A stretch of 64,000 nt of DNA from assembly GCF_000062885.1 (NCBI RefSeq), contig NC_009142.1:1039584-1103583 (forward strand), written 5' to 3'. Shown one piece after another: positions 3,283 to 53,962 of this stretch; the first letter of the stretch is position 1; every line of letters starts with the position of its first letter. The translations under genes were made by a program, and so were the position numbers. The notes beneath the pieces were generated by a model that searched no databases, was not told the DNA's origin, and worked only from the letters and a program-made list of their open reading frames with translations. The DNA comes from Saccharopolyspora erythraea NRRL 2338. Its GTDB lineage: Bacteria > Actinomycetota > Actinomycetes > Mycobacteriales > Pseudonocardiaceae.

Positions 3283-3411
3283 GGCGAAAGTGTGCCCCTG
3301 ATCCGGCCGGCCGGTCAGTATGGGGGACCCCACTCGGGGCACGGCGACCGGCTTCTTGAGCGATCAACGTGCGGCATCTCTCGGGCTCGCGTCCGGGCTG
3401 CACCCCCCGGA

Positions 3412-3456
3412 AAGCAGAAGACGCCGGCCCGCGCCCCGGACCGGCGTCTTCTGCTT
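3412..3456 (-). terminator. Intrinsic terminator after the first serine protease
   Basis: A perfect 16-bp inverted repeat (AAGCAGAAGACGCCGG and its complement) encloses a 13-nt loop, 12 nt beyond the stop of the minus-strand protease gene. There is no long U tract, as is usual in high-GC actinomycetes. Confidence 0.85.
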
Positions 3457-3467
3457 GCCTCGAGAGG

Positions 3468-4259
3468 TCAGACTCCCGCGACGTCGTTGATCCAGCCGCG
3501 GTAGGCGGTGGCGTCGGTGTAGATCGACGGCGCCGTGCCGCAAACCGGGACCAGGCTGCCGAGCCTGCTGGTGACGCCGGTCAGGCGCCAGTTGCCCGGC
3601 GTGCCCTCGAGCTGCGGGCCACCGGAGTCGCCGAAGCAGGCGTTGGTCAGCGGCCGCGAGCTGCCGGTGCAGATCTCGGTGCCCTCGTCCACCGCGCTCA
3701 GCGAGCACTGGCCGTCGTCGACGACCTTGGTGTCGAGCTCCTGCAACTGCACGGGCGGCGCACCGCAGCCGCGGACCGGGCAGGTCACGCCCCAGCCGAT
3801 GATCCGGGACTCCGTGCCGACCGGGCCGGACGCCTCGGCGATCTCGACCGGCTCCTGCGACACCGCGTGGTCGAGCTTGAGCAGCGCGATGTCACCGTTG
3901 GGGTTCTTGGTCTCGTAGTCGGGGTGCACCACAACCGCGGTCACACCGGCCTGCTCACCGCCGGCGGTGTGGTCCGGGCTGCCGATGCGCAGGCCCAGGT
4001 CCGCCGGAGTGGCGTCCTGGACGCAGTGCGCGGCGGTCAGCACCCACTCCTCGTCGATCAGCGAGGCGCCGCAGCTGTGCTGCCCCTGGCGCTGCAGCGA
4101 GGCCATCCATCCGTAGGGCTCGGTGGCGTCGTGGCCACCGACGATCAGGGTGCCCGGCCCCTCCTGCGGCGCGGGTGCGGCGTTGGCGGTCGCCGGCAAT
4201 GCCCCGATTCCCATTGCCAGTGCCGCCAAAGCACCGAGCACCAGTGAAGATTTGCTCAC
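3468..4259 (-). CDS. Secreted S1-family serine protease (copy 1)
   Basis: A 263-residue chymotrypsin-fold protease. The GTG start follows a strong GAGAGGAGA ribosome site and gives a clean signal peptide (SKSSLVLGALAALAMGIGALPATANA). Activation-like IVGG follows at residue 39. The triad is visible as His78 in LTAAHC, Asp123 in GDIALL and Ser212 in CFGDSGGP. The residue six before the serine (chymotrypsin 189) is Asn rather than the Asp that gives trypsin its Arg/Lys preference, so trypsin-like specificity should not be assumed. A close paralogue lies 1.3 kb away on the same strand, with an oxidoreductase gene on the other strand between them. Exported; substrate unknown. Confidence 0.93.
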   Translation of the reverse strand: MSKSSLVLGALAALAMGIGALPATANAAPAPQEGPGTLIVGGHDATEPYGWMASLQRQGQHSCGASLIDEEWVLTAAHCVQDATPADLGLRIGSPDHTAGGEQAGVTAVVVHPDYETKNPNGDIALLKLDHAVSQEPVEIAEASGPVGTESRIIGWGVTCPVRGCGAPPVQLQELDTKVVDDGQCSLSAVDEGTEICTGSSRPLTNACFGDSGGPQLEGTPGNWRLTGVTSRLGSLVPVCGTAPSIYTDATAYRGWINDVAGV

Positions 4260-4447
4260 GGCTCTCCTCTCCCGCTCAAAGACCCGTTCTGCCGAAGCTA
4301 GGTGCGGGGTTACCGGCCAGGTACCGCCAACTGCCGGGCGCAGTTGCGCAACACGGCGGAGCAACGTCGGCATTTCGCGCGCTATGGGCGGGTCTGCCGG
4401 GTCTAGCCTGGGAAGCATCCGCACGGTGGCGAGCGAATGGGGTGGGC

Positions 4448-5594: not shown

Positions 5595-6341
5595 TCAGCC
5601 GCCGGTGTTCTGGTTGATCCAGTCGGTGAAGGCGACCACGTCGGTGTAGATCGACGGACCGGTGGCGCAGGTCGGGTTGTTGTTGCCCGCGCGGCTGGTG
5701 GCGCCGATCAGCTCCCAGTTGCCCGAGGTGCCCTTGATCTGCGGGCCGCCGGAGTCGCCGTAGCAGGCGCCGGAGTTGCCGCCCGGGTTCGCGGTGCAGA
5801 TCTCGGTCGGGCCGTCGATGCTGGTGCAGTCGCCGTCGTCGACGATGGAGGTGTCGAGCTCCTGCAGCATGGTCGGGGCCTCGCCGCAGCCCTGCTCAGG
5901 GCAGGTCTGGCCCCAGCCGATGATACGGGTCTCGGTGCCCGGGGCGCCGGACTCCGCGGCGATCTTGATCGGGGCGGCCTGCACGGCGTGGTCGAGCTGC
6001 AGCAGCGCGATGTCACCGGAGTCGTGGGTCACGACGTTGGTCACGCCTGCCTCTTCGCCGCCGGTGGTGTTGTCGTTGCTGCCGATGCGCAGGCTGAAGT
6101 CCGACGGGCTGCCGCCCTGCACGCAGTGGGCCGCGGTGACCGCCCAGTCGGGCTTGATCAGCGACGCGCCGCAGCCGTGGCTGCCGCCGATCTGCAGCGA
6201 GGCCATGAACGAGTACTCCTCGGTGGCGTCGTGGCCACCGATGATGCGCACACCCGCGTCGTCCGCGGACGCAACCGCTGGGAGGCTGATCGCGCTGCTG
6301 ACGGCAGCGAGCACCCCGATAAGAACGGAACGCTTTCGCAT
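5595..6341 (-). CDS. Secreted S1-family serine protease (copy 2)
   Basis: A 248-residue paralogue of the protease at 3.5-4.3 kb, with the same layout: signal peptide (MRKRSVLIGVLAAVSSAIS, cleavage near VASA), IIGG at about residue 33, His72 in VTAAHC, Asp110 in GDIALL and Ser197 in CYGDSGGP. The six cysteines correspond to those of copy 1. At the position equivalent to chymotrypsin 189 it has Gly, different from Asn in copy 1, which suggests the pair diverged in substrate choice. The ATG has AAGGA about 12 nt upstream. Exported. Confidence 0.93.
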   Translation of the reverse strand: MRKRSVLIGVLAAVSSAISLPAVASADDAGVRIIGGHDATEEYSFMASLQIGGSHGCGASLIKPDWAVTAAHCVQGGSPSDFSLRIGSNDNTTGGEEAGVTNVVTHDSGDIALLQLDHAVQAAPIKIAAESGAPGTETRIIGWGQTCPEQGCGEAPTMLQELDTSIVDDGDCTSIDGPTEICTANPGGNSGACYGDSGGPQIKGTSGNWELIGATSRAGNNNPTCATGPSIYTDVVAFTDWINQNTGG

Positions 6342-6513
6342 ATCCGTGGAGTCCTTCCGTGAACCCCGGCGCCGGTCGCCGGATGGCCACAGACCGTATG
6401 CGGCATTCCACGAAAGGTGTACCCACTTAGGGAGTAAGTGCGTCGCGTCCAAGGAACGGGGTGCTTAGCCGTCCACGAACTCCGGATGGCCGGAAAACCC
6501 TCGATTTCCTGCG

Positions 6514-13329: not shown

Positions 13330-13359
13330 TTGACACAGGACCCACCTGCATCTTAGCGT
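13330..13359 (+). promoter_or_regulatory. Sigma70-type promoter of the sugar ABC transporter operon
   Basis: A consensus -35 TTGACA (13330-13335), an 18-bp spacer and a -10 TAGCGT (13354-13359). The same hexamers with the same spacing occur before the isomerase gene at 21766. The expected start of transcription falls inside the adjoining operator. Confidence 0.75.
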
Positions 13360-13361
13360 CC

Positions 13362-13377
13362 GGGCAATCGTTTTCTC
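13362..13377 (+). promoter_or_regulatory. LacI-type operator upstream of the ABC transporter
   Basis: GGGCAATCGTTTTCTC is a 16-bp imperfect palindrome centred on CG, with the AANCGNTT core typical of LacI/GalR regulators. It matches the reverse complement of the operator at 21798 at 15 of 16 positions. It sits immediately downstream of the -10, where bound repressor would block initiation. The only LacI-family gene in the window is at 20.7-21.7 kb, so it is the likely ligand. Confidence 0.75.
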
Positions 13378-13406: not shown

Positions 13407-14993
13407 ATGAGCACAGCAGCGGCGCTGGTCGAGATGACCGGGATCACCAAGCGCTACGGGGGCGTGGTGGCCTGCGACGGCGTGGACCTCACCGTCCGCG
13501 CCGGGGAGGTGCACGCGCTGCTCGGTGAGAACGGGGCGGGCAAGTCGACGCTCATGCGGGTGCTCTCCGGCGACATCGCCGACTACGAGGGTTCGGTGGC
13601 GATCGAGGGCCGCCAGGTGCGCTTCGGCAAGCCCGCCGATGCCCAGCAGGCCGGCATCGCGATGATCCACCAGGAGCTCGACCTGGTGCCCGCGCTCTCG
13701 GTGGCCGAGAACCTCTACCTCGGCCGGGAGCTGCGCAACCGGTTCGGCGGTGTCGACCGGCGCCGGATGGCCGCCCGCACCCGCGAACTGCTCAAGCGCA
13801 CCGGCATCGACCTCGACCCCGCCCGCGCCGTCGGTGAGCTGCGGGTCGGCGAGCAGCAGCTGGTCACCATCGCGAGGGCGCTGCTGCTCGACGCCAAGGT
13901 CCTGATCATGGACGAGCCGACGTCGGCGCTGTCCAACACCGAGGTCGAGCGGCTGTTCGCGGTGATCGGCGAGCTGCGCCGCCGCGGCACCGGCGTCGTC
14001 TACATCTCGCACCGCATGGACGAGATCGGCCAGATCGCCGACCGGGCGACCGTGCTGCGCAACGGCCGGTGGGTCGCCGAGTTCGACGCCAGGCGGGTCA
14101 CCGCCGAACAGGCCGCCGAGGCGATGGTCGGCCGCGAGGTGCAGACCATGTTCCGCACCGGGAAGACCGAGATCGGTGACGAGCTGCTGACGCTGTCGGG
14201 CTTCGCGGTCCGCCCGCGCAGGCCCCGCGTGGGCAGGCGGGAGCCGGACGGCATCGACCTGACCGTGCGCGCCGGCGAGATCGTCGGTTTATGCGGTCTG
14301 CTGGGCTCCGGGCGCACCGAGCTGCTGGAGACGCTGTTCGGCGCGGGTTCGCCGGGGACCTGGGAAGGCACGGTGACGCTGGGCGGACGCACGGTGCGGC
14401 CGAGGGGGCCGCGCCAGGCGCTGCGCGAGGGCATCGCCTTCGTCCCCGAGGACCGCCGCGCGGCCGGGCTGGTCCTCGGGCACTCGGTGATGGCCAACAC
14501 CGTGCTCTCGGTGGTGGACCGGCTCGGCGTCGGCGGGCTGGTGCGCCGCCGCTCCGAGGTGAGCACGACCCAGGAGAGCGTCCGCAGGCTCAAGGTCAAG
14601 CTCGGCAGGATCCTCGACCCGGTCGGCACTCTTTCGGGTGGCAACCAGCAGAAGGTCGTCTTCGGCCGGATGCTGCTGACCGAGCCGCGGCTGCTGCTGC
14701 TCGACGACCCGACGCGCGGCGTGGACATCGGCGCGAAGGCCGAGATCTACCAGCTGCTCAGCGACATCGCCGCGCAGGGCATCGGGGTGCTGCTGGCCTC
14801 GTCCGAGCTGCCCGAGCTGGTCGGTGTGTGCAGCCGGGTCGTCGTGCTGCGCGGCGGGCGCAGTGTGGCCGAGTTCCGGACCGCCGAGACGGGTGAAGCC
14901 GAATTGTTGGCCGCCGCGATGGGCGAGAGGGTTTCCGCCGGCGGTGGTGACGCGGCGGGGACCGGCCCCGTCGCGGGGGGAGGTGCGCGGTGA
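13407..14993 (+). CDS. Sugar ABC transporter ATP-binding protein (double ABC domain)
   Basis: A 528-residue tandem ATPase of the MglA/RbsA/XylG/AraG family that energises monosaccharide import. The first domain has an intact Walker A (GENGAGKST), VGEQQLVTIAR and DEPTSALSNTEV. The second has the family's degenerate P-loop (GLLGSGRTELLETLFG), the signature LSGGNQQKV and DDPTRGVDIGAK. The ATG follows a G-rich ribosome site. It overlaps the permease gene by 4 bp (GTGA). It lies behind the LacI-type operator, so it is probably induced by the imported sugar. Confidence 0.95.
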   Translation: MSTAAALVEMTGITKRYGGVVACDGVDLTVRAGEVHALLGENGAGKSTLMRVLSGDIADYEGSVAIEGRQVRFGKPADAQQAGIAMIHQELDLVPALSVAENLYLGRELRNRFGGVDRRRMAARTRELLKRTGIDLDPARAVGELRVGEQQLVTIARALLLDAKVLIMDEPTSALSNTEVERLFAVIGELRRRGTGVVYISHRMDEIGQIADRATVLRNGRWVAEFDARRVTAEQAAEAMVGREVQTMFRTGKTEIGDELLTLSGFAVRPRRPRVGRREPDGIDLTVRAGEIVGLCGLLGSGRTELLETLFGAGSPGTWEGTVTLGGRTVRPRGPRQALREGIAFVPEDRRAAGLVLGHSVMANTVLSVVDRLGVGGLVRRRSEVSTTQESVRRLKVKLGRILDPVGTLSGGNQQKVVFGRMLLTEPRLLLLDDPTRGVDIGAKAEIYQLLSDIAAQGIGVLLASSELPELVGVCSRVVVLRGGRSVAEFRTAETGEAELLAAAMGERVSAGGGDAAGTGPVAGGGAR

Positions 14994-16054
14994 CCGACCG
15001 GACCGACGAGCGGGCCCCGACTCCGGCCACGCAACCCGGCGGCGGGCCGCCCGCCGCGCCGCCGCGGTCCTCGCGCGCGGGGACCGTCGAGACGCTGTTC
15101 CGATTCCAGAGCTTCTTCGGGCTGCTCGCGGTGTTCGTGGCCGCGGTGGTCTTCTCGCCGCGCAAGGACGGCGAGATCCTGTTCCTGTCCAGCGACAACC
15201 TGTTCAACATCATCCGCGCGGTCTCGGAGATCGGGATCATCGGCATCGGGCTGACCTTCGTCATCCTGATCGGCGGCATCGACCTGTCGGTGGGCTCGGT
15301 GCTCGGGCTCGCCGCGGTCGGCTCGGCCGTGCTGATGATCAACAGCGACTTCGGGGTGCTGTCGACGGTCTCGATCGTGCTGCTGGCGGGTGTCGTGTTC
15401 GGCCTCCTGCAGGGCACCGCGGTCTCCCTGCTCGGCGTGCAGGCGTTCATCGTGACGCTGGCCGGCCTGCAGATAGCCCGCGGTCTCGCGCGCATGTGGT
15501 CTGGCGGCGAGACGGTGCAGATCTCCTACGGCGACGGACCCGACCAGGCACCGATGGCGTTCTCGCTGCTCGGCGAGCGCACCTTCGGCGGTGTGGTGCC
15601 GATCCCGGCGCTGATCTTCGCCGCGGTCGCGGTCGCGGCGATCCTGTTCCTGCGCACCAGCGCCTACTCGCGCCACCTGTACGCGATCGGCGGCAACGAG
15701 AAGGCCGCGCGGCTCTCGGGTGTCCCGGTGAACCGGGTCAAGATCATCGCCTTCGGCATCGCCGGGTTCTGCGCGGCGCTGGCGGGCATCGTGCACGCGG
15801 GCCAGCTCAACGCGGGCAGCCCCAACGACGGCATCGCCTACGAGCTGGACGGGATCGCGGCGGTGGTGGTCGGCGGGACCAGCCTCGCCGGTGGCCGCGG
15901 GTCGGTGATCGGCACGATCGCCGGTGCGCTGCTGCTGGGCATCCTCAACAACATCCTGAGCCTCAACAGCGTCAACACCGACATGCAGTTGCTGATCAAG
16001 GGTCTGGTGATCGTCGCGGCTGCGGCATTGCAACGGTTGCGCCCCACGTCGTAG
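14990..16054 (+). CDS. Sugar ABC transporter permease (RbsC/XylH family)
   Basis: A 354-residue integral membrane permease with about nine hydrophobic segments. The family hallmarks ILIGGIDLSVGSVLGLAA near the N-terminus and AIGGNEKAARLSGVPVNRVK in the large cytoplasmic loop are present, followed by AVVVGGTSLAGGRGSVIGT. The first 40 residues are a polar Pro/Ala-rich extension. It is translationally coupled to the ATPase gene and 33 bp ahead of the binding-protein gene. It forms the channel for a pentose or hexose; the substrate is not readable from the permease. Confidence 0.94.
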   Translation: MTDRTDERAPTPATQPGGGPPAAPPRSSRAGTVETLFRFQSFFGLLAVFVAAVVFSPRKDGEILFLSSDNLFNIIRAVSEIGIIGIGLTFVILIGGIDLSVGSVLGLAAVGSAVLMINSDFGVLSTVSIVLLAGVVFGLLQGTAVSLLGVQAFIVTLAGLQIARGLARMWSGGETVQISYGDGPDQAPMAFSLLGERTFGGVVPIPALIFAAVAVAAILFLRTSAYSRHLYAIGGNEKAARLSGVPVNRVKIIAFGIAGFCAALAGIVHAGQLNAGSPNDGIAYELDGIAAVVVGGTSLAGGRGSVIGTIAGALLLGILNNILSLNSVNTDMQLLIKGLVIVAAAALQRLRPTS

Positions 16055-16087
16055 CCGCACAGCGGGAACCATCCGGGAGGAAGCACG

Positions 16088-17092
16088 ATGCGCAAGACAA
16101 CGAGGTCCTTGTTCGCGATGACGTGCGCTGCGGTGGCCATAGCCGCGGCCGGCTGCGGTACGACGAGTGAGAACACCGGCCAGGTCCAGCAGCAGGACCC
16201 GACGAAGGCGTGCAAGGGCCCGGACAGCAAGTACACGATCGGCATGAGCCAGGCCAACCTCGCCGAACCCTACCGGGTGCGGATGGACGAGGACATCCGC
16301 AAGGCCGCGGAGAAGGTCCCGCAGTTCGATGTGCAGTTCGCCGACGCGGCCAAGGACAACTCCAAGCAGGTCAGCGACGTCGAGAACTTCATGACCAAGA
16401 AGGTCGACCTGCTGATGATCTCGCCGAACGAGGCGGCGCCGCTGACCGACGTGGTGAAGAAGGCCTACAACGAGGGCATCCCGGTCGTTGTGCTCGACCG
16501 CAAGGTCGAGGGCGAGGCCTTCACCACCTACATCGGCGCGGACAACGTGCAGATCGGCAGGCAGGCCGGCGAGTACTTCAAGAACACGCTGCTGCCGCAG
16601 GGCGGCAAGATCGTCCAGCTCAAGGGGCTCTCCGGTTCCACGCCCGCAGCCGAGCGCGAGAAGGGCTTCATGGAGGGCATAGCCGGGTCGAAGATCGAGG
16701 TCGTCGACACCGCCGACGGCGAGTGGGAGCGCTCGGTCGGGCAGCAGAAGATGGACGCGCTGCTCAAGGCCCACCCCGACATCCAGGCGGTGTACGCGCA
16801 GAACGACCCGATGGCCGAGGGCGCGTGGCTGGCCGCCCAGGCCGCCGGGCGAAAGGACCTGAAGTTCGTCGGCATCGACGGCCTGCCCATCGAGTCGGGC
16901 GGCATCAAGGCCGTGGAGCAGGGCAGGCTGTCGGCCACCAACCTCTACCCGACCGGCGGCGAGGAGGCCGTCGAGGCGGCGCGCAAGCTGCTCATCGACT
17001 GCCAGCCGGTGCCGAAGGAGCAGACGCTGCCGACCGAACTGGTCACCAGGGAGAACGCGGCCCAGGTCTACACGCGGTTGAACCAGGGCTGA
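16088..17092 (+). CDS. Sugar-binding lipoprotein of the ABC transporter
   Basis: A 334-residue substrate-binding protein of the ribose/xylose (type I periplasmic fold, Peripla_BP_4) family. The signal sequence ends in a lipobox (AIAAAGC), so it is anchored to the outer face of the membrane. Typical motifs follow: KYTIGMSQANLAEPYRVRM, DLLMISPNEAAPLTDVV, VVLDRKVEGEAFTTYIGADN and AVYAQNDPMAEGAWLAAQ. It is the third gene of the operon, followed by a strong hairpin at 17244. Confidence 0.94.
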   Translation: MRKTTRSLFAMTCAAVAIAAAGCGTTSENTGQVQQQDPTKACKGPDSKYTIGMSQANLAEPYRVRMDEDIRKAAEKVPQFDVQFADAAKDNSKQVSDVENFMTKKVDLLMISPNEAAPLTDVVKKAYNEGIPVVVLDRKVEGEAFTTYIGADNVQIGRQAGEYFKNTLLPQGGKIVQLKGLSGSTPAAEREKGFMEGIAGSKIEVVDTADGEWERSVGQQKMDALLKAHPDIQAVYAQNDPMAEGAWLAAQAAGRKDLKFVGIDGLPIESGGIKAVEQGRLSATNLYPTGGEEAVEAARKLLIDCQPVPKEQTLPTELVTRENAAQVYTRLNQG

Positions 17093-17243
17093 CCGCATCG
17101 GGAACCGGTCCGGCCGAGGTGGCGGATCCCAGTTCTTCTCCGCTGAGTGTCACCCGATTGCCGGACGGTCACCCGGTCGACGCCCGGACACGCCTGGCTG
17201 AACCGGGCCGAGAACGCCCGGACGCGTGAAGCAGGAACCGGCA

Positions 17244-17292
17244 CTCGCCGGTGCGGCCCGCTGGGGAGAATCCCGCGGGACGCACCGGCGAG
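17244..17292 (+). terminator. Terminator of the ABC transporter operon
   Basis: A perfect 12-bp arm pair (CTCGCCGGTGCG and its complement) continues, after one mismatch, into a further 5-bp stem. It begins about 150 bp after the binding-protein stop. The remaining 17.3-17.6 kb stretch has no gene. It is AT-richer than its surroundings and presumably carries the promoter of the GH172 gene. Confidence 0.75.
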
Positions 17293-17637
17293 TCCGCCTG
17301 AGCACGTCCCCCAGATCACGTTGGGACTACGGTTTTCATCCATTGTGGAGAAGCTAATTCCTTTGCGTCGGTTGACGATGCCGACCGCGTGACCGACCGT
17401 GAGTCCGATTTGCAATGAATGGCCGAATGCCACCTGGATGGGGGTTGTCCGGCGCTACTCCGCCCGGCAACCATTCTATCAGGTGAATGCGTCGCACCGT
17501 TTTCCGTTGCACCGACAGGTGTTCGGACTGCGGCGGCGGATCCCACTCATACCCTTTTGCACAAAGTCGAGTGATGTCTTGTTCCCGAGTCGAACCGGGA
17601 AGGCGAAGTCGAATCGCGCGCGTGACCGATGGAACCG

Positions 17638-17670
17638 GTACGGCACCGTCCGCAGAGGACGGTGCCGTGT
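17638..17670 (+). promoter_or_regulatory. Leader hairpin just before the GH172 ribosome site
   Basis: ACGGCACCGTCC and its exact complement form a 12-bp stem with a 5-nt loop, extendable by wobble pairs. It ends only a few bases before the GGGGAGG ribosome site of the GH172 gene. It could act as an mRNA-stabilising structure, an attenuator or a read-through terminator. Which of these is inference. Confidence 0.6.
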
Positions 17671-17688
17671 GTGGGGAGGGCAAGCAGG

Positions 17689-20244
17689 ATGAGAGACGGC
17701 TCGAGGGAAGCGAATTCGGCGTATCGCCGTCGCCCGAGCAGGTTCGGCGTGTACCTGGGAGTCGCGACGCTGGCGGCGGCCACCGTCGTGGCCGACGCCG
17801 GCCTGAGCCCCGAAGCGGCGTTCGCGCAGCGCAACGCGGCCGCGCGGGGCGCTGTCGGCTGGGACACCTACCGCGACGTCAACGGGCTGACGCAGCTCCG
17901 CGGGGGTGAGCAGAGCAGGCAGTTCTCCAGCTTCGCCCGGGACGGCAGCAACAACGACGGATTCCAGGGCACCTTCTCCTGCCTGCGCACCTGGCAGCGC
18001 GGTTGCGTGATCGCCGAGCACTCCGGGCCGGGCGAGATCTCCTCGATCTGGTTCACCCGGGAGCCCTGGGGCGACGTCACCGGCACCGGCAACATCGTCA
18101 TCGAGCTCGACGGCAGGGTGGTGCTCGACCGGCCGCTGATCGACGTGGTCACCGGGCGGGTCGGCGGACCGTTCCAGTGGCCGCTGGTCGGCAACGCCGA
18201 CGACGCCTCCGGCGGCGCGGTCATCAAGGTCCCGATGCCCTACCGGGAGTCGATGCGGGTGACCGTGCAGAACAACCCGTACTTCTACCACGTCAACACC
18301 CGCACCTTCCCCGACAGCAACGGTGTGCAGACGTTCAACCCCGCCGACGGCGCATCTGACGTCCTGCGCAGGCTGCGCGGCTTCGGCGTCGCCGACCCGA
18401 AGCCGTCGGCCCCGGGGGCGCGGCCCACCCGCCGCGACTTCGAACTCGCGCCCGGTGCGTCGGTGCGGGTCGCCGAGCTCAGCGGGCCCGCGCAGATCAA
18501 CCAGCTCCGGGTGCGCCTGCCGCAGGTGCTGGCCAGCCCGCAGGTCGTCGACGACGGCATGGCCTACGGCCAGGGCGGCGGCAGCCGCTTCCGGATGGCG
18601 GTGCACCCGGGCAACCAGGGCATCCGGGTGATCCGGCGCTACGACCCGCAGATCGCCTACCAGGTCGCGCGCATGAACGTCGACGGCGTGCCCGCGGGGG
18701 AGTGGCGCAGCGGGGCGGCCGCGCCCGGCGCCTGGGGCGTGCAGATCATCGAGGTGCCGCCCGCGCTGACCGCGGGCAAGTCCTCGGTCGAGATCGCCAA
18801 CCAGTTCCTGTCCTCCTCGCTGGACGTCAACGAGTTCCGCTACGACGTCCACAGCAAGGTGAACGGGGAGTGGGTGCGCACCGACGTGCTCGACCTCGGC
18901 CCGGCCCACCCGGGTGAGGAGGCCGCGCACGGGTACCGCATCGACAACCCGGTGTTCGCGCGGTCCAAGCTGGTCGGCCGCTACGGGTTCCCGCCCGACC
19001 AGGTCGCGGCGTCCGACGCGATGCTGGAGACGACGCGGGTGCGCATCACCTTCGACGGCAGGACCACTGTGGACGCCCCGATCGGCGAGTTCTTCGGCAC
19101 CGGTCTCGGCGAGCACGACGTGCGGACCATGATGAGCTCGGTCGACCCCGGCCTCGACGGCTGGTACACCGCCTGGTGGCCGATGCCGTTCAGCCGGAAC
19201 GCCACCGTCGAGATCGTCAACACCGGAGGAGCCGTGGTCAGGGGCGCGACCGCCGAGGTGGTCAGCGCGCCGATGGAGATCGGGACCAACACCGGCTACT
19301 TCCACGCCACGCACCGGCGGGCCCCCACGACCCCGGGCCAGGACTGGACGTTCGTCGACGCCAAGGGCGCGGGCACCTTCTACGGCGTCACGCACACCAT
19401 GCGGGGGCTGATCCCGCCAGGGATGAGGAGCGCCGCGCGGCCGCTCTCGGTGGAGAACCAGGCAGCGGCCAACCAGCGCAACTACCTGGAGGGCGACGAG
19501 CGCTTCTACGTCAACGGGTCGTCGAGCCCGGCCTGGCACGGCACCGGCAGCGAGGACTACTACGAGGCCGGGTGGTACTTCCGCGACGGCACGACGTTCT
19601 CGATGCCGCTGGCGGGCAACCCGTCGCACGAGCTGAACGCCGACGGCTGCCGCTACGACTGCACCGGCGCCTACCGGCTGATGGTGCCCGACGCGGTGCC
19701 CTTCGCCGACGGGCTGCTGGCCGGCATCGAGCACGGGCCGCTCAACGACGAGCCGGGCGACTACAGCTCGGTGGCCTACTGGTACGGCGGCCACCCCGCC
19801 GAGCAGCGGCTCACCGACGAGGTCGACCTCGCAGACCCGGCCAGCCGCGACCGGCACGGCTACCGGGCGCAGGGCGAGGCTGTCGCGTCGCTGAACGCAA
19901 CCTACGAGGGCGGGCGCAACCCGTCGCCGATGACCAGGGCAACCACGACCGCGACCGGCCCGATCAGCTTCGACGTGGCGGTCGACGCGAACGGCGAGGG
20001 CGTGCGGCTGCGGCGGCTCGGCGACCAGCAGAACGCCTACCAGGCCGTGGACGTGCGGATCGACGGCCAGCCCGCCGGGCGCTGGCTGCAGCCGCTGGGC
20101 AACCCGCACCACCGGTGGCTCGAGGACGAGTTCGACGTGGCGCCTGGCCTGACCGACGGCAAGCAGTCGGTGCGGGTGGAGCTGTTCCCGGTCCAGGGAG
20201 CACCCGCCTGGTCGGCCTCGAAGTATTCGGTCTACTCGCGCTAG
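17689..20244 (+). CDS. Secreted GH172-family (DUF2961) glycoside hydrolase
   Basis: An 851-residue exported enzyme. A twin-Arg-less basic N-terminus and hydrophobic core (VYLGVATLAAATVVADAGL) lead to a cleavage site at AFA. The body matches DUF2961: SSFARDGSNNDGFQ, GPGEISSIWFTREPWGDVTG, GGPFQWPLVG, GWYTAWWPMPFSRNATVEIV, YLEGDERFYVNG near residue 600 and HGTGSEDYYEAGWYF with Glu622. The last 130 residues form an extra beta-sandwich-like region. Characterised GH172 members act on D-arabinofuranosyl or fructofuranosyl linkages, including mycobacterial D-arabinan. The flanking pentose transporter, isomerase and kinase fit release of D-arabinose; that substrate is inferred. Confidence 0.88.
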   Translation: MRDGSREANSAYRRRPSRFGVYLGVATLAAATVVADAGLSPEAAFAQRNAAARGAVGWDTYRDVNGLTQLRGGEQSRQFSSFARDGSNNDGFQGTFSCLRTWQRGCVIAEHSGPGEISSIWFTREPWGDVTGTGNIVIELDGRVVLDRPLIDVVTGRVGGPFQWPLVGNADDASGGAVIKVPMPYRESMRVTVQNNPYFYHVNTRTFPDSNGVQTFNPADGASDVLRRLRGFGVADPKPSAPGARPTRRDFELAPGASVRVAELSGPAQINQLRVRLPQVLASPQVVDDGMAYGQGGGSRFRMAVHPGNQGIRVIRRYDPQIAYQVARMNVDGVPAGEWRSGAAAPGAWGVQIIEVPPALTAGKSSVEIANQFLSSSLDVNEFRYDVHSKVNGEWVRTDVLDLGPAHPGEEAAHGYRIDNPVFARSKLVGRYGFPPDQVAASDAMLETTRVRITFDGRTTVDAPIGEFFGTGLGEHDVRTMMSSVDPGLDGWYTAWWPMPFSRNATVEIVNTGGAVVRGATAEVVSAPMEIGTNTGYFHATHRRAPTTPGQDWTFVDAKGAGTFYGVTHTMRGLIPPGMRSAARPLSVENQAAANQRNYLEGDERFYVNGSSSPAWHGTGSEDYYEAGWYFRDGTTFSMPLAGNPSHELNADGCRYDCTGAYRLMVPDAVPFADGLLAGIEHGPLNDEPGDYSSVAYWYGGHPAEQRLTDEVDLADPASRDRHGYRAQGEAVASLNATYEGGRNPSPMTRATTTATGPISFDVAVDANGEGVRLRRLGDQQNAYQAVDVRIDGQPAGRWLQPLGNPHHRWLEDEFDVAPGLTDGKQSVRVELFPVQGAPAWSASKYSVYSR

Positions 20245-20265
20245 GGGTGGCTGGATGAGCGCGTT

Positions 20266-20299
20266 GAAGGGGCGTCCCCGGCGCCGGGGGCGCCCCTTC
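20266..20299 (+). terminator. Terminator after the GH172 gene
   Basis: A 17-bp near-perfect inverted repeat (left arm GAAGGGGCGTCCCCGGC, one G-U pair) with almost no loop begins 21 bp after the GH172 stop. Confidence 0.88.
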
Positions 20300-20366
20300 G
20301 TCCACATCCACCGGGCCCGTTTCCGCACGTGCGCCCTGCTGCGGCGGGCGCGGTCCTTCGAGTTGG

Positions 20367-20719
20367 TCAGAGCAGGTCGGTGCGGCGGGCGAACGCGTCG
20401 CGGAGCAGCGCGCTGACCGCGTCCGGGCGCAGCGCCGCGGTGGTGGGGGAGACCTCGCGGACGTAGCGCCCGGAACCGGTCAGCAGCCCTTCGGGGTCGT
20501 CGAGCAGCACACCTTTGTGGAACACCAGCCGCGCGCCCCCGGCCGTCGCGGCGACGCGCACACCCAGTGGGGCCAGTCGCCGTCGACGGCGAAGGTCAGC
20601 CGGCCCCACTTCACCGCGTGCTCCACGCGCGAGTCGGTGCCCAGGACGAGCGCCGCCAGCGCTCGCACCTGGGCACGCGTCTCCTCGTCGAGCCCGTCGA
20701 GCCACTCCCGCATCGCCAC
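20367..20719 (-). pseudogene. DUF1801-type protein gene, frameshifted
   Basis: Two overlapping minus-strand frames together encode one DUF1801-like protein of about 117 residues. The N-terminal part is MREWLDGLDEETRAQVRALA through WGRLTFAVDGDWPHWV. The C-terminal part, in the next frame, is VRVAATAGGARLVFHKGVLLDDPEGLLTGSGR. The frames join at GTGTGCGCG near 20560, where a 2-nt repeat slip would explain the break. The 5' frame runs on into Pro/Arg/Cys-rich sequence and stops at 20480. The gene starts 4 bp after the lacI stop, so it was cotranscribed with the regulator. A sequencing error cannot be excluded. Confidence 0.75.
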
Positions 20720-20723
20720 GGCG

Positions 20724-21719
20724 TCAGCTCCGGGAGCTGCTACCCCGCGTGACTAGGTGCGCCGACAGGGTGGTGGTCGAGGCGTCGGTGCGGTCGCCGC
20801 CGATGCGGCTGAGCAGCAGCTGCGCCCCCACGGCACCCATGTCGTAGGCGGGCTGGGAGACGACGGTCAGCGGCGGGTCGAGCAGCGTCGCCCACGGAGC
20901 GTCGTCGAAGGCCACCACGCCGACGTCGCGGCCGGCTCGCAGGCCGAGCTCGGCCATCGTCTCCAGCACGCCGACCGCCATGGCGTTGTTGGCCACCAGC
21001 ACCGCTTCCGGCCGCGGGTCCTGGGTGAGCAGCGACCGCGCCGCCTCCTTCGCGCCCGCGGCCTTGAACTCGCAGCGCCGGACCAGGTCGTCGGAGACGG
21101 TCCGGCCCGCCTCGCGCAGGCCGTCCTGGTAGCCGGCGAGGCGGTCGTCGGCGGTGAGCACACCGGTGGGGCCGGTGATGCAGGCGATGTCGCGGTAGCC
21201 CTGCGCGCTGAGATGCAGCGCGGCATCCCGGGCCGCGTCGCGGCTGTCCACCAGGACCGTGTCGCCGAAGGAGTTCGGCAGCGGCCGGTCCAGCGCCACC
21301 ACCGGCGTCCCGTGCGTGCGGAGCAGGTCGGCGCTGTCGCCCGCGCCGGCCGGGGACAGCAGCACCCCGGCCACCCGCTCCTGCAGCGCGACGTCGATGT
21401 ACTCGCGCTCCTTGTCCGGTTCGTCATCGGAGTTGCACAGCACGACCGAGTACCCCGCGGAGTGCGCCACGTCCTCCACACCGCGCGAGATCGCGGTGAA
21501 GAAGGGGTTCTCCACGTCGGAGATGATCAGCGCCAGCACCGCTGTCTCCTGCTTGCGCAGGTTGCGGGCCGGGCCGTTGGGCCGGTAGCCCAGTTCGTCG
21601 GCCGCCGCCAGCACCCGGGCGGCCAGTTCCGGATCGACCGTGCTCTTGCCGTTGAGCGCCCGGGACACGGTCGCGGTGGAGACCCCCGCGCGGGTCGCCA
21701 CGTCACTGATCGTCGCCAC
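20724..21719 (-). CDS. LacI/GalR-family transcriptional regulator of the sugar locus
   Basis: A 331-residue LacI-type repressor: the N-terminal helix-turn-helix ATISDVATRAGVSTATVSRA, the hinge ELGYRPNGPARNLR, then a sugar-binding domain (ALIISDVENPFFTAISRGVE, GYRDIACITGPTGVLTADDR, VGVVAFDDAPWATLLDPPLT). Two matching operators lie in the window, one in its own divergent promoter region and one before the ABC transporter. This makes it the presumed autoregulated sugar-responsive repressor of both operons. A TATAAC sequence on the minus strand at 21778-21783 is a plausible -10 for it, so the operator at 21798 would overlap its promoter. Confidence 0.93.
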   Translation of the reverse strand: MATISDVATRAGVSTATVSRALNGKSTVDPELAARVLAAADELGYRPNGPARNLRKQETAVLALIISDVENPFFTAISRGVEDVAHSAGYSVVLCNSDDEPDKEREYIDVALQERVAGVLLSPAGAGDSADLLRTHGTPVVALDRPLPNSFGDTVLVDSRDAARDAALHLSAQGYRDIACITGPTGVLTADDRLAGYQDGLREAGRTVSDDLVRRCEFKAAGAKEAARSLLTQDPRPEAVLVANNAMAVGVLETMAELGLRAGRDVGVVAFDDAPWATLLDPPLTVVSQPAYDMGAVGAQLLLSRIGGDRTDASTTTLSAHLVTRGSSSRS

Positions 21720-21765
21720 CGTTCCTCCCGTTGTCCTCTTCCCGCGTGATCACCGGGCGTCAGCC

Positions 21766-21795
21766 TTGACAGCCCGTGTTATACGAGAATAGCGT
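21766..21795 (+). promoter_or_regulatory. Sigma70-type promoter of the isomerase-kinase operon
   Basis: TTGACA (21766-21771), an 18-bp spacer and TAGCGT (21790-21795), identical in both hexamers and spacing to the promoter at 13330. The leader to the isomerase start would be about 165 nt, which is long and otherwise featureless. Confidence 0.75.
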
Positions 21796-21797
21796 CC

Positions 21798-21813
21798 GAG
21801 AAAACGATTGCTC
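21798..21813 (+). promoter_or_regulatory. LacI-type operator in the lacI/isomerase divergent region
   Basis: GAGAAAACGATTGCTC is a 16-bp palindrome with two mismatched pairs, a CG centre and an AAACGATT core. It abuts the -10 of the isomerase promoter and overlaps the likely lacI promoter, so it could control both directions. It is preceded by TAGCGTCCG exactly as at 13354. Confidence 0.8.
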
Positions 21814-21968
21814 ATAGCTCGTACGGCGCATTGTGAAAAACCTTCCCGTTCGAGTGGCCGCCACCGGGGAGTCGCGGGCGTCCGGGGCGCAGGTCGTCTG
21901 CGATCCCTCCCCGCCGTCGTGCTCTCAGCAGTCAACGCCGCCTGTCTGGAAGAACTTGGGAGGAACCC

Positions 21969-23384
21969 GTGGCTCGCATCGGTGTCATCAGCATCTCCGA
22001 CGGGCGTGACCATGTGCACGCGCGGAACTCGGAGTTCATCCAGTCCAAGCAGGACGAACTCGTCCGGTCGCTGAAGCAGGCCGGGCACGAGGTCGTCGTG
22101 GGCGACGACCTGGTCGCCACCAACACCCTGGCCACCTCGGTGGCGCGCAAGGTCGCCGCCTCCGAGGTCGACGTCACCGTCTTCTACTACGCAGTCTGGG
22201 CCTTCCCGCACTTCACGATGCTGGCAGCCGACGCAACCCGCAGCCCGCTGGTGCTGGTCGCCAGCACCGACCCCACCGAGCCCGGCCTGGTCGGCATGCT
22301 CGCGGCGGGCGGCGCGCTCGACCAGATCGGCCGCTCGCACACCCGGGCGTGGGGCGCTCCGGACGACACCGAGCTGGCGGAGAAGATCAGCGTGCACGCC
22401 AGGGCGGCGGCCGCGGTCTCGGCCCTGCACGGCTCCACCTTCGGCCGCTTCGGCGGCCGTCCGATGGGCATGAACACCGCGGTGGCCAACACCGACCAGT
22501 GGCAGCGCCAGTTCGGCATCGACGTCGAGGAGATCGACCAGTACGAGCTGGTCCTGCGCGCGGAGAAGGCCGACGAGGCCGAGGCCAAGCACGCCCGCGA
22601 GTGGATCGAGCGCCACGCCGCCGGGGTGCACTACGACGGCAAGAAGCTCACCCCGGAGCTGCTGGAGCGCCAGATCCGCTCCTACATGGCGGTCCGGGAC
22701 ATCATCGCCGAGCGCAACCTGGACTTCTCCGGCATCAAGGGCCAGCCCGAGCTCACCGAGCACTTCGCCACCATGGACGTCACCGAGGCGTTCCTCAACG
22801 ACCCCTACGACTGGAACGGTCCGAAGAAGACCCACGTCTGCGCCACCGAGGCCGACATGGACGGGGCGCTGACGATGCAGATCTTCAAGAGCATCGCCGA
22901 GACCCCGGTCCTGTTCGCCGACGTCCGCCACTACCACGCCGACCGCGACATCTGGGACCTGTGCAACTCCGGCCAGCACGCCACCTGGTTCGCCGCGCGC
23001 AGCGACGACCCGGCGGAGAACCTGGCGAAGGTCAACTTCTACCCGGAGGTGTTCTTCTTCCCGGCGGGCGGCGCCTCGGTCCAGCACATCGCCGCTCCCG
23101 GCCAGATGACGCTCGGCAGGCTGACGCGCGAGGACGGCCAGTACCGGCTCCAGCTCATGCTCGGCGAGTTCGAGAGCTACGACGAGGCCACCAACAAGGT
23201 GCTGATGGACCAGTCGACGCCGGAGTGGCCGCACGCCTTCGCACGGCTCGACGCGCCGGGCGAGGTGTTCCTGTCGAAGTTCGGCGCCAACCACATCCAC
23301 GCCATCCCGGGCGACCACCGCGCCGCGCTGCGCGCCGTCACCGAGCAGCTCGGTATCCGTCTCGACGAGTGGACCCGCGGCTGA
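21969..23384 (+). CDS. L-fucose/D-arabinose isomerase-like protein
   Basis: A 471-residue member of the FucI/AraA isomerase superfamily, which interconverts aldoses and ketoses with Mn2+. Homology signs are the N-terminal Rossmann-like part (ARIGVISISDGRDHVHARN), VFYYAVWAFPHFTMLAADA, GRFGGRPMGMNTAVANTDQW, and the C-terminal metal/substrate region with ATEADMDGALTMQIFK, WDLCNSGQHATWFA and NHIHAIPGDH. FucI-type enzymes commonly accept both L-fucose and D-arabinose. The pentulokinase-like partner downstream and no visible aldolase favour D-arabinose to D-ribulose, by inference. The GTG start follows GGGAGGAAC. It is the first gene of a LacI-controlled operon. Confidence 0.85.
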   Translation: MARIGVISISDGRDHVHARNSEFIQSKQDELVRSLKQAGHEVVVGDDLVATNTLATSVARKVAASEVDVTVFYYAVWAFPHFTMLAADATRSPLVLVASTDPTEPGLVGMLAAGGALDQIGRSHTRAWGAPDDTELAEKISVHARAAAAVSALHGSTFGRFGGRPMGMNTAVANTDQWQRQFGIDVEEIDQYELVLRAEKADEAEAKHAREWIERHAAGVHYDGKKLTPELLERQIRSYMAVRDIIAERNLDFSGIKGQPELTEHFATMDVTEAFLNDPYDWNGPKKTHVCATEADMDGALTMQIFKSIAETPVLFADVRHYHADRDIWDLCNSGQHATWFAARSDDPAENLAKVNFYPEVFFFPAGGASVQHIAAPGQMTLGRLTREDGQYRLQLMLGEFESYDEATNKVLMDQSTPEWPHAFARLDAPGEVFLSKFGANHIHAIPGDHRAALRAVTEQLGIRLDEWTRG

Positions 23385-23472
23385 CGCATCCTCGTAGCCG
23401 AACCGGTCCGGCCGCGACGCGTCCCAGCCGGACCGGCTCACCCACCGGCCACCACCAGGAGAGGACTTCGCG

Positions 23473-24963
23473 ATGGCCGAAACAGTGCTGCTCGGCATCG
23501 ACATCGGCACGTCGAGCTCCAAGGGCGTGCTGGTCACCGCCGACGGGCGCGTCGTCGCCCGGGCGACCAAGCCGCACGAGACCTCCTACCCGCACCCGGG
23601 CTGGGTCGAGCACGACGCCGAGGACGTGTGGTGGGCCGACTTCCGGGCGCTGGTGTCCGAGCTGCTGCCCGCGGTCGAGGGCCGCACGCTGGCCGGCCTT
23701 GGCGTCAGCGGCATCGGGCCGGTGCTGCTGCCCGCCGACGGCGACGGCAACCCGCTGCGCCCGGCGATCCTCTACGGCGTCGACACCCGGGCCACCGAGC
23801 AGATCGCCGCGCTGACCGAGGAGCTGGGCGCCGACGAGATCCTGCGGCGCGGCGGGTCGGCGCTGAGCAGCCAGGCGGTCGGGCCGAAGATCCGCTGGCT
23901 CGCCGAGCACGAGCCCGAGACCTACCGGCGCACCGAGATGCTGCTGATGTGCAGCTCGTACCTGGTGCACCGGCTGACCGGGCGCTACGTGCTCGACCAC
24001 CACTCGGCCAGCCAGTGCGACCCGCTCTACGACCTGGCCGCGCGGGACTGGTCGGCGCAATGGGCGGCGCGGGTCGCCCCGGACCTGCCGCTGCCGGAGC
24101 TGGCCTGGCCGACCGAGGTCGTCGGCCACGTGGGCGCGCGGGCCGCGGCCGAGACCGGGCTGCCCGAGGGCCTGCCGGTCACCGCGGGCACCGTCGACGC
24201 CTGGGCGGAGGCGACCAGCGTCGGCGTCCGCAAGCCCGGCGACGTGATGCTGATGTACGGCACGACGATGTTCTTCGTGCAGGTCCTCACCGACCCGCAC
24301 CCGCATCCGGCGCTGTGGGGCACGTGCGGGGCGTTCCCGGACACCTACACCCTCGCGGCCGGGATGGCGACCTCCGGCGCGGTCACCGACTGGCTGCGCA
24401 AGCTGGTGGACGGCGAGTTCGCCGATCTGGTCGAGCAGGCGGCGCAGGCGCCCGCGGGCAGCCGAGGTCTGTTGCTGCTGCCCTACTTCGCCGGCGAGCG
24501 CACGCCGATCTTCGACCCGGACGCCAGGGGCATCCTCGCGGGCCTGACGACCAGCCACGGGCGCGGCGAGCTCTACCGGGCAGCGCTCGAGGGCATCGCA
24601 TACGGCGTCCGGCACAACCTCGAAGCGATGAGCGAGGCCGGCGGCACCGCGGGCAGGCTGGTCGCGGTCGGCGGCGGCACGCAGGGCGGCCTGTGGACGC
24701 AGATCGTCTCCGACGTCACCGGGCAGGAGCAGCAGGTGCCGGGCGAGACGGTCGGCGCCGCCTTCGGCGACGCGCTGCTCGCCGGCGTCGGCACCGGGGC
24801 CGCCGTCGCGCCCGACGAGTGGAACCCGATCGCCACCACCGTCCGGCCGAACCCGGCCAACCACGACCGCTACGACGCCTTCTACCGCCACTACCGCGAC
24901 CTCTACGAGGCCACCACCGGCATCGCCCACTTCCTCGCCGAGGAGCAACGCGCCGCGGACTGA
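23473..24963 (+). CDS. FGGY-family pentulose kinase
   Basis: A 496-residue carbohydrate kinase of the xylulokinase/ribulokinase group: phosphate loop LLGIDIGTSSSKGVLVTADG at the N-terminus, then GVSGIGPVLLPADGDGNPLRPAILYGVDTR, LMYGTTMFFVQV, LLLPYFAGERTPIFDP and ALEGIAYGVRHNLEAM. It is 88 bp behind the isomerase gene with a strong AGGAGAGGA ribosome site, so it is probably cotranscribed. Expected job: phosphorylate the ketopentose made by the isomerase, giving a pentulose 5-phosphate for the pentose phosphate pathway. Annotated as xylulokinase-like; the real substrate (D-ribulose, D-xylulose or other) is open. Confidence 0.88.
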   Translation: MAETVLLGIDIGTSSSKGVLVTADGRVVARATKPHETSYPHPGWVEHDAEDVWWADFRALVSELLPAVEGRTLAGLGVSGIGPVLLPADGDGNPLRPAILYGVDTRATEQIAALTEELGADEILRRGGSALSSQAVGPKIRWLAEHEPETYRRTEMLLMCSSYLVHRLTGRYVLDHHSASQCDPLYDLAARDWSAQWAARVAPDLPLPELAWPTEVVGHVGARAAAETGLPEGLPVTAGTVDAWAEATSVGVRKPGDVMLMYGTTMFFVQVLTDPHPHPALWGTCGAFPDTYTLAAGMATSGAVTDWLRKLVDGEFADLVEQAAQAPAGSRGLLLLPYFAGERTPIFDPDARGILAGLTTSHGRGELYRAALEGIAYGVRHNLEAMSEAGGTAGRLVAVGGGTQGGLWTQIVSDVTGQEQQVPGETVGAAFGDALLAGVGTGAAVAPDEWNPIATTVRPNPANHDRYDAFYRHYRDLYEATTGIAHFLAEEQRAAD

Positions 24964-25033
24964 GGGGCGATCTTGTTAGGCTCGCTCCGTCTCCGCACCC
25001 TGTGCAGTGCGGCGGAGGGGGAGGGCAGATCCG

Positions 25034-25978
25034 ATGGCGGTGGCACGACGTGTCCTGGCGGCGGCGGTCGCCCTGCTCGCGCTGGCCGCCGCCGGATGCG
25101 CCCGCCCCGCGGCGTCCAGCACCGACGAGGCCCCTCCCGCGGCCGGGCGCGACCTCGGCGCCGCTCGCGTGCTGCGCGGCGAGGTCTACGCGCAGCGCGA
25201 CTCCGGCGCCCTGCAGCTCGACCTCTTCCTGCCGAAGCGCAGGTCAGGACCCGTGCCGCTGGTCGTGTACGCCCACGGCGGCGGCTGGGACGCGGGGGTG
25301 CGGACGCTGGACGCCGACCTGTCCACCACCGAGGCCCTGACCGCCGAGCGGCTGCTCGGGCACGGCTACGCGGTGGCCACTGTGGACTACCGGCTCACCG
25401 GCGTCGCGCAGGCTCCCGCCCAGGTCGTGGACGTGGCCGACGCGGTGCGCTGGCTCCAGCAGCGCGGCGGTGAGTGGGGCGTGGACGGCGACCGGGTCGT
25501 GCTGTGGGGCGCCTCCGCCGGTGGGCACCTCGTGTCGCAGCTCGCGGCTGTCGCCGGCGACCCGGGCAAGCCGGGAGGCGGGCTGACCGGCATCCGCGGG
25601 GTGCTGAACTGGTTCGGCCCGACCGACATGAGCGCCGAAGCCCAGGTCTCGCACCCGGAGCTGCGGGACTACTCGCAGCGCTCGGTCCGCAAACTGCTGG
25701 GCTGCGTGCCGCTGGAGTGCCCGGCGACGGCCGACGCGTCGAGCCCGATCAAGAACGTCTCCGGTGACGAACCGCCGTTCCTGATCCAGCAGGGGACCAG
25801 CGACTCGATCGTGCCGATCGACCAGAGCCTCGACTTCGCCGCGAAGCTGCGCGGCCTCGGCGTCGCCGTCGACATGCACCCGTACGAGGGGTTCGACCAC
25901 GGCTTCGGGCGCGGACCGCGCACGCCGCTCATCGTCGACACCGCCGTCGCCTTCGTCGACACCCACCTGGCGCGCTGA
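25034..25978 (+). CDS. Lipoprotein alpha/beta hydrolase (acyl-esterase-like)
   Basis: A 314-residue carbohydrate-esterase-like alpha/beta hydrolase exported as a lipoprotein (lipobox LAAAGC near residue 20). The oxyanion motif AHGGGW, the nucleophile elbow GASAGGH, an Asp in GTSDSIVPIDQ and a His in GFDHGFG complete the catalytic set. It belongs to the BD-FAE/acetyl-esterase type that removes acyl groups from polysaccharides. The ATG follows GGAGGGGGAGGG and lies 70 bp after the kinase gene, so it may share the sugar operon. A role in deacylating the polymer attacked by the GH172 enzyme is inferred from context only. Confidence 0.85.
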   Translation: MAVARRVLAAAVALLALAAAGCARPAASSTDEAPPAAGRDLGAARVLRGEVYAQRDSGALQLDLFLPKRRSGPVPLVVYAHGGGWDAGVRTLDADLSTTEALTAERLLGHGYAVATVDYRLTGVAQAPAQVVDVADAVRWLQQRGGEWGVDGDRVVLWGASAGGHLVSQLAAVAGDPGKPGGGLTGIRGVLNWFGPTDMSAEAQVSHPELRDYSQRSVRKLLGCVPLECPATADASSPIKNVSGDEPPFLIQQGTSDSIVPIDQSLDFAAKLRGLGVAVDMHPYEGFDHGFGRGPRTPLIVDTAVAFVDTHLAR

Positions 25979-53872: not shown

Positions 53873-53962
53873 CGCCACGGGAGTCCAGCGCGCTGGGCTG
53901 AGAGGAGGGGCGAGCCCCTCGACCGTACGAACCTGAACCGGATCATGCCGGCGCAGGGAGGC
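53873..53962 (+). ncRNA. TPP riboswitch (THI element)
   Basis: The conserved segments are in order: ACGGGAGTCC, GGGCTGAGAGG, GACCGTACGAACCTGAACCG, GATCATGCCGGCGCAGGGA. The hairpin between them (GAGGGGCGAGCCCCTC) is the variable P3-type arm. Ligand binding normally shuts off thiamine genes; here the riboswitch lies directly ahead of a thiamine-type ABC transporter. Confidence 0.96.

Follow-up and report, generated by a model that had tools for sequence, protein, structure and literature searches.

D-Arabinose is an unusual wall sugar of actinobacteria. According to the text passages of PMC10509167, the D-arabinan locus of Microbacterium arabinogalactanolyticum combines GH183, the GH172 enzyme ExoMA1, GH116, an ATP-binding cassette (ABC) transporter, an isomerase and a kinase; ExoMA1 is an exo-alpha-D-arabinofuranosidase, D-arabinose and wall extract both induce its cluster (the GH172 gene only 3.5- and 6-fold), and the isomerase and kinase are proposed to serve D-arabinose. 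PUL42 of Dysgonomonas gadei holds GH172 enzymes together with a predicted fucose isomerase, and the most abundant carbohydrate-active protein of this organism on D-arabinan is a predicted fucose isomerase (text passages of PMC10115798). A third GH172 setting is that of alphaFFase1 of Bifidobacterium dentium (PDB 7v1v), whose operon holds GH32, LacI and ABC genes (text passages of PMC8605356). Here we describe an eight-gene locus of Saccharopolyspora erythraea NRRL 2338, in the arabinan-making family Pseudonocardiaceae, which bears on the question of D-arabinose recovery by D-arabinan-making bacteria. It lies in a window of 64,000 nucleotides (nt), the whole stretch of DNA analysed (NC_009142.1, positions 1,039,584 to 1,103,583), and encodes a CUT2-type sugar ABC importer (ATPase, permease and binding protein), a long secreted GH172 protein, a LacI-family regulator, a FucI-superfamily isomerase, an FGGY kinase and an esterase lipoprotein (Table 1).

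The combination by which published D-arabinan loci are recognized, GH172 with an isomerase, a kinase and a sugar ABC importer, is found here. The LacI regulator and the superfamily of the isomerase are further likenesses to the M. arabinogalactanolyticum locus; unlike it, the window has a secreted multi-domain GH172, an importer of the CUT2 type, and neither a linked GH183 endo-D-arabinanase nor a linked GH116 exo-beta-D-arabinofuranosidase. PUL42 differs in belonging to Bacteroidota and in having GH183 genes, and its isomerase was compared by description only (text passages of PMC10115798). The locus is likely to be a variant of the known D-arabinan-utilization clusters. Searches of open-licence PMC texts found no Pseudonocardiaceae locus of this kind described: Saccharopolyspora, Streptomyces, Amycolatopsis and Pseudonocardia are not named in the main texts of PMC10509167 and PMC10115798, and in one Saccharopolyspora genome paper GH172 appears only in a list of families.

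We consider it probable that the locus serves the harvest and catabolism of D-arabinose; a D-arabinan step is somewhat less likely than the use of D-arabinose itself. In this pathway, which is predicted by comparison of sequences as to its substrates, the direction of transport and the position phosphorylated by the kinase, the secreted GH172 protein would release D-arabinose from alpha-D-arabinofuranosides outside the cell, the free sugar would enter through the CUT2 importer and be turned into D-ribulose by the isomerase, the kinase would form D-ribulose 5-phosphate for central metabolism, and the LacI protein would act as a repressor at a shared operator.

Microbacterium loci and isomerase exchange among Streptomyces loci

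To anchor the comparison to CHARACTERISED loci, we searched with a piece of ExoMA1 and retained, out of 580 confirmed stretches, the best 80 as loci; a kinase scoring at least 470 bits with the window kinase was present in 27 of these best 80. The M. arabinogalactanolyticum genome is not among the loci compared, and identities to loci of its type are taken from close Microbacterium relatives. Twelve Microbacterium loci carry a GH172 that is 88-94% identical to the ExoMA1 piece, and all 12 have GH183 and GH116 matches, which were checked by Pfam in M. oxydans L158. Their kinase is 52-55% identical to that of the window in 10 loci (none was shown in the other two) and their LacI protein 41-44% identical. 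The Microbacterium isomerase is a distant relative, about 23% identical to that of the window and matching no Pfam family at 1e-8; the candidate reading of it as a long FucI was dropped.

An ExoMA1-type GH172 is common to all 12 Streptomyces loci, as is a CUT1 binding protein (at least 70% alike). Each of these loci has an isomerase of one of two types, never both. In L182, L184, L186 and L188 the isomerase is of the window type (66-69% identical), and the kinase (62-65%) and LacI protein (45-49%) also resemble those of the window, unlike the short ExoMA1-type GH172 and the CUT1 binding protein. In L185, L187, L189-L193 and L199 it is of the Microbacterium type (64-67% identical to that type, about 23% to that of the window where aligned). 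Where a gene set can have either of two isomerases, the two most likely catalyze the same reaction, and this exchange is the strongest single argument for D-arabinose.

Linkage of isomerase and GH172 genes

We sampled 200 genomes of Pseudonocardiaceae (family sample) and 396 genomes of the phylum. The gene caller used for reading loci is rough and misjoins genes (e.g., L075 and L077), and the counts rest on tblastn or genome searches. Counts of GH172-isomerase linkage omit second segments of split matches (G008, G009, G031, G037, G065, G070, G114, G118, G131, G140 and G178) and isomerase fragments (G137 and G190); L237, with no kinase match, was left out of the kinase tree, the operator scans and the gene-conservation counts.

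The isomerase is present in 77 and GH172 in 93 of the 200 family genomes. Any GH172 occurs in 71 of the 77 isomerase genomes versus 22 of the 123 others, and GH183 in 66 of 77 versus 66 of 123, in statistics that ignore relatedness. In 57 of the 77 genomes, and in 16 of the 20 isomerase-holding genera, isomerase and GH172 genes are no more than 15 kb apart. Among the linked GH172s, 47 are long as in the window (3 of them of a diverged long kind) and 10, from two genera, are short and of another type; in one genus the run is isomerase, kinase, sugar porter and short GH172, the last being of a different type (25-30% identical).

Relatives more than 50% identical to the window proteins were found across the 25 isomerase-holding family loci read for the kinase (23), LacI (22), the binding protein (18), the ATPase (17) and the permease (17), and some GH172 is present in 19. 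The esterase has such a relative in only 4 of the 25, the window counted. The initial annotation had taken the eight genes as one set and had included deacylation by the esterase; the linkage of isomerase, kinase and GH172 is conserved across genera, and the deacylation step is not supported as a conserved part. For the annotation's choice of D-arabinose as the sugar, comparative genomics gives good support through this linkage, the kinship of the kinases and the exchange of isomerases.

Across the phylum sample, 37 of the 396 genomes have the isomerase at an E-value of 1e-20 or better, many of them as distant matches of 25-35% identity. We read 20 phylum loci and found GH172 in six: three of 11 with an isomerase 59-65% identical and three of nine with a more distant one. 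The latter three are L153-L155, in which GH172, isomerase and kinase stand together. As a side observation, a gene for a GH43/GH32-like protein lies between isomerase and kinase in loci of two genera (L086, 8293-9246; L090, 12018-13589).

Catabolic enzymes and importer

The isomerase has three Pfam fucose isomerase domains above cut-off and scores below the NCBIfam FucI equivalog cut-offs (89 bits versus 850 and 103 versus 775). Glu294 and Asp318 align with the FucI Glu and Asp motifs, and His442 is matched by a GANH motif only, in a weak second aligned stretch; we take these three residues to correspond to the metal ligands of FucI. FucI enzymes accept both L-fucose and D-arabinose.

The kinase is closest to XylB models, with 327 bits for the xylulokinase model TIGR01312, below its equivalog cut-off of 380, and 108 bits for the L-fuculokinase model. 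The known D-ribulokinase RbtK belongs to an AraB-derived branch, versus the XylB-like best models of the locus kinase; this contrast is one of profiles. In the text passages of a 2011 family study (PMC3245297), D-ribulokinase was found solely in Alphaproteobacteria and derived from the AraB branch, so that a D-ribulokinase of the XylB branch would be new. Other FGGY proteins of the same genome are at most 33% identical to the locus kinase. In the kinase tree the Actinomycetota locus kinases group together, and the paralogues of the genome stand apart on long branches, their exact placement being unsure. One distant paralogue, a second FGGY-family kinase, lies at the edge of the window (6-1385).

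The importer shows every mark of the CUT2 type: a fused double ATPase, a BPD_transp_2 permease and a Peripla_BP_4 binding protein. NCBIfam models of xylose, arabinose and ribose ATPases all match the ATPase below their cut-offs. Among solved structures, 2x7x is closest to the binding protein (239 bits), with YtfQ and ribose-binding proteins scoring lower; 2x7x is a fructose-binding sensor domain, and by this analogy the relationship hints at a furanose ligand. The locus offers a compact, testable enzyme set with a candidate D-ribulokinase outside the described group and a second type of predicted D-arabinose isomerase.

The long GH172 protein

The protein of 871 residues scores 232 bits with the DUF2961 profile (curated cut-off 27). 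A double jelly roll (residues ~238-723), with a fold like that of solved members such as alphaFFase1, is followed by a CBM6/35-like domain (727-871). The beta-rich N-terminal part (~70-240) may be an extra jelly-roll half, judging only from motifs and predicted strands; compared by description only, it recalls DgGH172b of PUL42, a weakly active enzyme with 1.5 DUF2961 domains (text passages of PMC10115798). The long multi-domain architecture was not found in the text passages of PMC10509167 or PMC10115798. The closest named relatives among the matches listed are from Saccharopolyspora (84% identity in S. taberi, ~65-76% in others). A second, short GH172 is encoded elsewhere in the genome, near uvrC-like and glycolytic genes as read from the gene list.

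We collected long-class relatives as the best 120 of 509 proteins and aligned 61 of them, so that conservation was counted over 62 rows. Glu621 and Glu642, the equivalents of the acid/base Glu270 and the nucleophile Glu291 of alphaFFase1, are invariant (62/62). Two pocket positions differ. The subsite Trp267 of alphaFFase1 is replaced by Asn618 in 40 of 62 rows and by other residues in the remainder, with a shift of the alignment by one residue to Tyr619 being possible; Trp267 is not family-defining in print, so GH172 membership stands. The position held by Gly299 or Asn253 in known enzymes is Tyr650 in all 62 rows. Gly299 of alphaFFase1 admits the 1-hydroxymethyl group of fructose (text passages of PMC10509167), and a bulky residue in its place is the sequence feature looked for in a D-arabinofuranosidase as opposed to a fructofuranosidase.

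Some further loci contain GH172 proteins of interest. The short GH172s of L153, L154 and L155 have Leu and Tyr at the two pocket positions of the window protein and adjoin a distant isomerase (~30% identity) and an FGGY kinase. Long GH172 relatives stand beside FG-GAP repeat proteins in L101, L102 and L107 (in L107 the neighbors were assigned by similarity only); one such FG-GAP protein has an amidase domain (L102) and one a GH43-like domain (L101).

A shared operator of importer and isomerase genes

A near-palindrome of 16 nt stands directly 3' of a promoter-like TTGACA-N18-TAGCGT element both before the ATPase gene and before the isomerase gene. A consensus promoter and terminator scan of the window reported nothing, this element included. 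With up to four mismatches allowed, 20 of 25 family loci, across genera, have the operator in the 250 nt upstream of the isomerase, and 14 of 16 have it in the corresponding interval upstream of the ATPase; shuffled stretches match at about 1% (250-nt look) and 2% (700-nt look). On the same terms it was found before the kinase in none of 22 family loci, and the Microbacterium and Streptomyces loci gave weak matches at best. Joint control of importer and isomerase through the shared operator is a well-supported prediction, and the LacI protein with its operator would provide parts for a D-arabinose sensor. In L094 (~2890-3560) the ATPase and permease genes are missing; an exact operator lies upstream of the GH172 homology at a distance of 666 nt, separated from it by no more than a short binding-protein remnant.

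The candidate of a wider LacI regulon was rejected: the exact operator pattern occurs at four places in the genome, two of them those of the window. The other two lie elsewhere, one beside a set of binding-protein and glucosidase-like genes (read from gene lists).

Alternative explanations

A number of observations weigh against a D-arabinose pathway that includes the long GH172. No operator precedes the GH172 gene of the window, nor that of any of 18 family loci (gene starts estimated), and a wider look, over 700 nt ahead of the GH172 homology, gave an operator in only 2 of 19 loci, L102 (3 mismatches) and L094. The gap of 536 nt between the binding-protein and GH172 genes of the window contains a strong hairpin with 22-nt arms (z -6.2, without a T run), possibly a terminator, a stabilizer or an attenuator. 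Both changed pocket positions are departures from known enzymes. The linkage is also incomplete: in 20 of the 77 isomerase genomes no GH172 is found inside the 15-kb range, and these include every one of the 10 genomes of genus g26, whose long GH172 lies elsewhere in the genome, and 12 family genomes with a GH172 of the long or middle class have no isomerase match. The association is looser beyond the family, where GH172 accompanies a close isomerase in only 3 of 11 loci, several misses being on short contigs. GH183 and GH116, linked in the Microbacterium loci, were found neither among the cluster genes of the window nor by tblastn in the family loci (25 isomerase-holding loci for GH183; one query for GH116), and among Streptomyces loci a GH183 match accompanies the Microbacterium-type isomerase in five of eight cases and the window type in none of four.

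Control of the GH172 gene by the same operator in this genome is not supported. Given the operator missing in 17 of 19 loci, the hairpin, the changed pocket positions and the 12 genomes without an isomerase match, isomerase, kinase and importer might form a D-arabinose unit while the long GH172, expressed apart, acts on another furanosidic substrate or in wall remodeling. We regard this as unlikely in view of the 57 of 77 genomes in which the genes are linked, the five of 10 other family loci measured in which the estimated gap from binding-protein gene to GH172 homology is below 100 nt, the different GH172 types that adjoin the same isomerase, and L094, which retains operator and GH172 though the importer genes are missing. 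The action of the GH172 on D-arabinan proposed by the initial annotation remains a prediction, for which the retained catalytic Glu pair speaks and against which the two pocket positions and the missing operator stand.

Use of L-fucose, or of another aldose accepted by FucI-type isomerases, with the GH172 cleaving the matching glycoside, seems less probable still. The Pfam family of the isomerase is that of L-fucose isomerase, the known breadth of FucI enzymes covers both sugars, and L140, a locus of a different family in the phylum, combines an isomerase of 64-65% identity with nearby genes for an alpha-L-fucosidase and an enolase-family protein, which fit L-fucose there and likewise count against D-arabinose. 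Pfam searches of 25 whole genomes, however, found Aldolase_II (FucA family) genes in 23 and alpha-L-fucosidase genes in 8, but never within 15 kb of the isomerase; the lack of a nearby Aldolase_II gene is what a route through D-ribulose 5-phosphate would predict. The low score of the kinase with the L-fuculokinase model, its kinship with kinases of D-arabinan-type loci and the isomerase exchange in such loci all point the same way, and we know of no GH172 that releases fucose. Least probable, and in our view very improbable, is a locus for alpha-D-fructofuranosides such as caramel dianhydrides, in the manner of alphaFFase1. The placing of that GH172 in an operon with LacI and ABC genes (text passages of PMC8605356) would favor it, as would the kinship of the binding protein with 2x7x. 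On the other side, fructose use has no obvious need of an isomerase and an FGGY kinase, no GH32 match was found among the locus proteins, and Tyr650 replaces the fructose-admitting Gly299; fructofuranosides, named as an alternative substrate by the initial annotation, are disfavored on these grounds.

If D-arabinose is the sugar, its source may be the cell's own wall or that of other actinobacteria. Both possibilities fit the content of the genome, with its 8 arabinosyltransferase-family matches and, apart from the locus, two GH183 genes. A more elaborate own-wall salvage is tentative and, taken as a whole, less likely than not: the unlinked secreted GH183s would cut D-arabinan, the long GH172 would trim it at a split site with the partner half in its own chain, and the CUT2 importer, the second kind of D-arabinose isomerase and an XylB-branch D-ribulokinase would bring the sugar back into the pentose phosphate pool.

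Gene content and surroundings

Gene identities were assigned from open reading frames and from Pfam and NCBIfam profile searches of the window proteins. All eight genes named by the initial annotation are present as open frames where it had placed them, and Pfam confirmed their families. Third-position G+C content of the eight frames is 0.92-0.98, in a window of 72% G+C. Lipobox-like N-termini of the binding protein and the esterase and the signal-like N-terminus of the GH172 protein were all judged by eye.

Table 1. Features of the locus (window coordinates)
Feature	Coordinates	Strand	Basis or remark
Promoter-like TTGACA-N18-TAGCGT before importer genes	13330..13359	+	By eye
LacI operator copy 1, GGGCAATCGTTTTCTC	13362..13377	+	
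CUT2-type sugar ABC ATP-binding protein	13407..14993	+	ATG start; Pfam ABC_tran
CUT2-type permease	14990..16054	+	Pfam BPD_transp_2
Sugar-binding lipoprotein	16088..17092	+	Pfam Peripla_BP_4; lipobox-like N-terminus
Strong RNA hairpin between importer genes and GH172 gene	17243..17293	+	
Secreted multi-domain GH172 (DUF2961), 871 aa	17629..20244	+	Likely start Met21 at 17689, with the better ribosome-binding site
LacI-family regulator	20724..21719	-	Pfam
Promoter-like TTGACA-N18-TAGCGT before isomerase	21766..21795	+	By eye
LacI operator copy 2, GAGAAAACGATTGCTC, between LacI and isomerase genes	21798..21813	+	
FucI-superfamily isomerase, predicted D-arabinose isomerase, 471 aa	21969..23384	+	Pfam L-fucose isomerase family
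FGGY kinase, XylB branch, predicted D-ribulokinase	23473..24963	+	Pfam/NCBIfam
BD-FAE-type esterase lipoprotein, membership in the set uncertain	25007..25978	+	Pfam; lipobox-like N-terminus

The window belongs to an 8.2-Mb genome of one contig. Housekeeping genes flank the locus, the pair IspH and DUF6542 at one end and the pair RmuC and SbcD at the opposite end, and these flanks are seen again around the locus in several related genera, so that it is probably an old resident there. The stretch between GH172 and LacI (20260-20720) resembles remnants of a small gene; its counterpart in the sister-genome locus L106 has a frame of 157 residues at 9901 on the minus strand. Elsewhere in the window, two neighboring genes for trypsin-family proteases (3468-4424 and 5595-6452) lie near genes for fumarase and the GlpX fructose bisphosphatase, and a thiamine pyrophosphate (TPP) riboswitch at 53874-53962 scores above its curated threshold.

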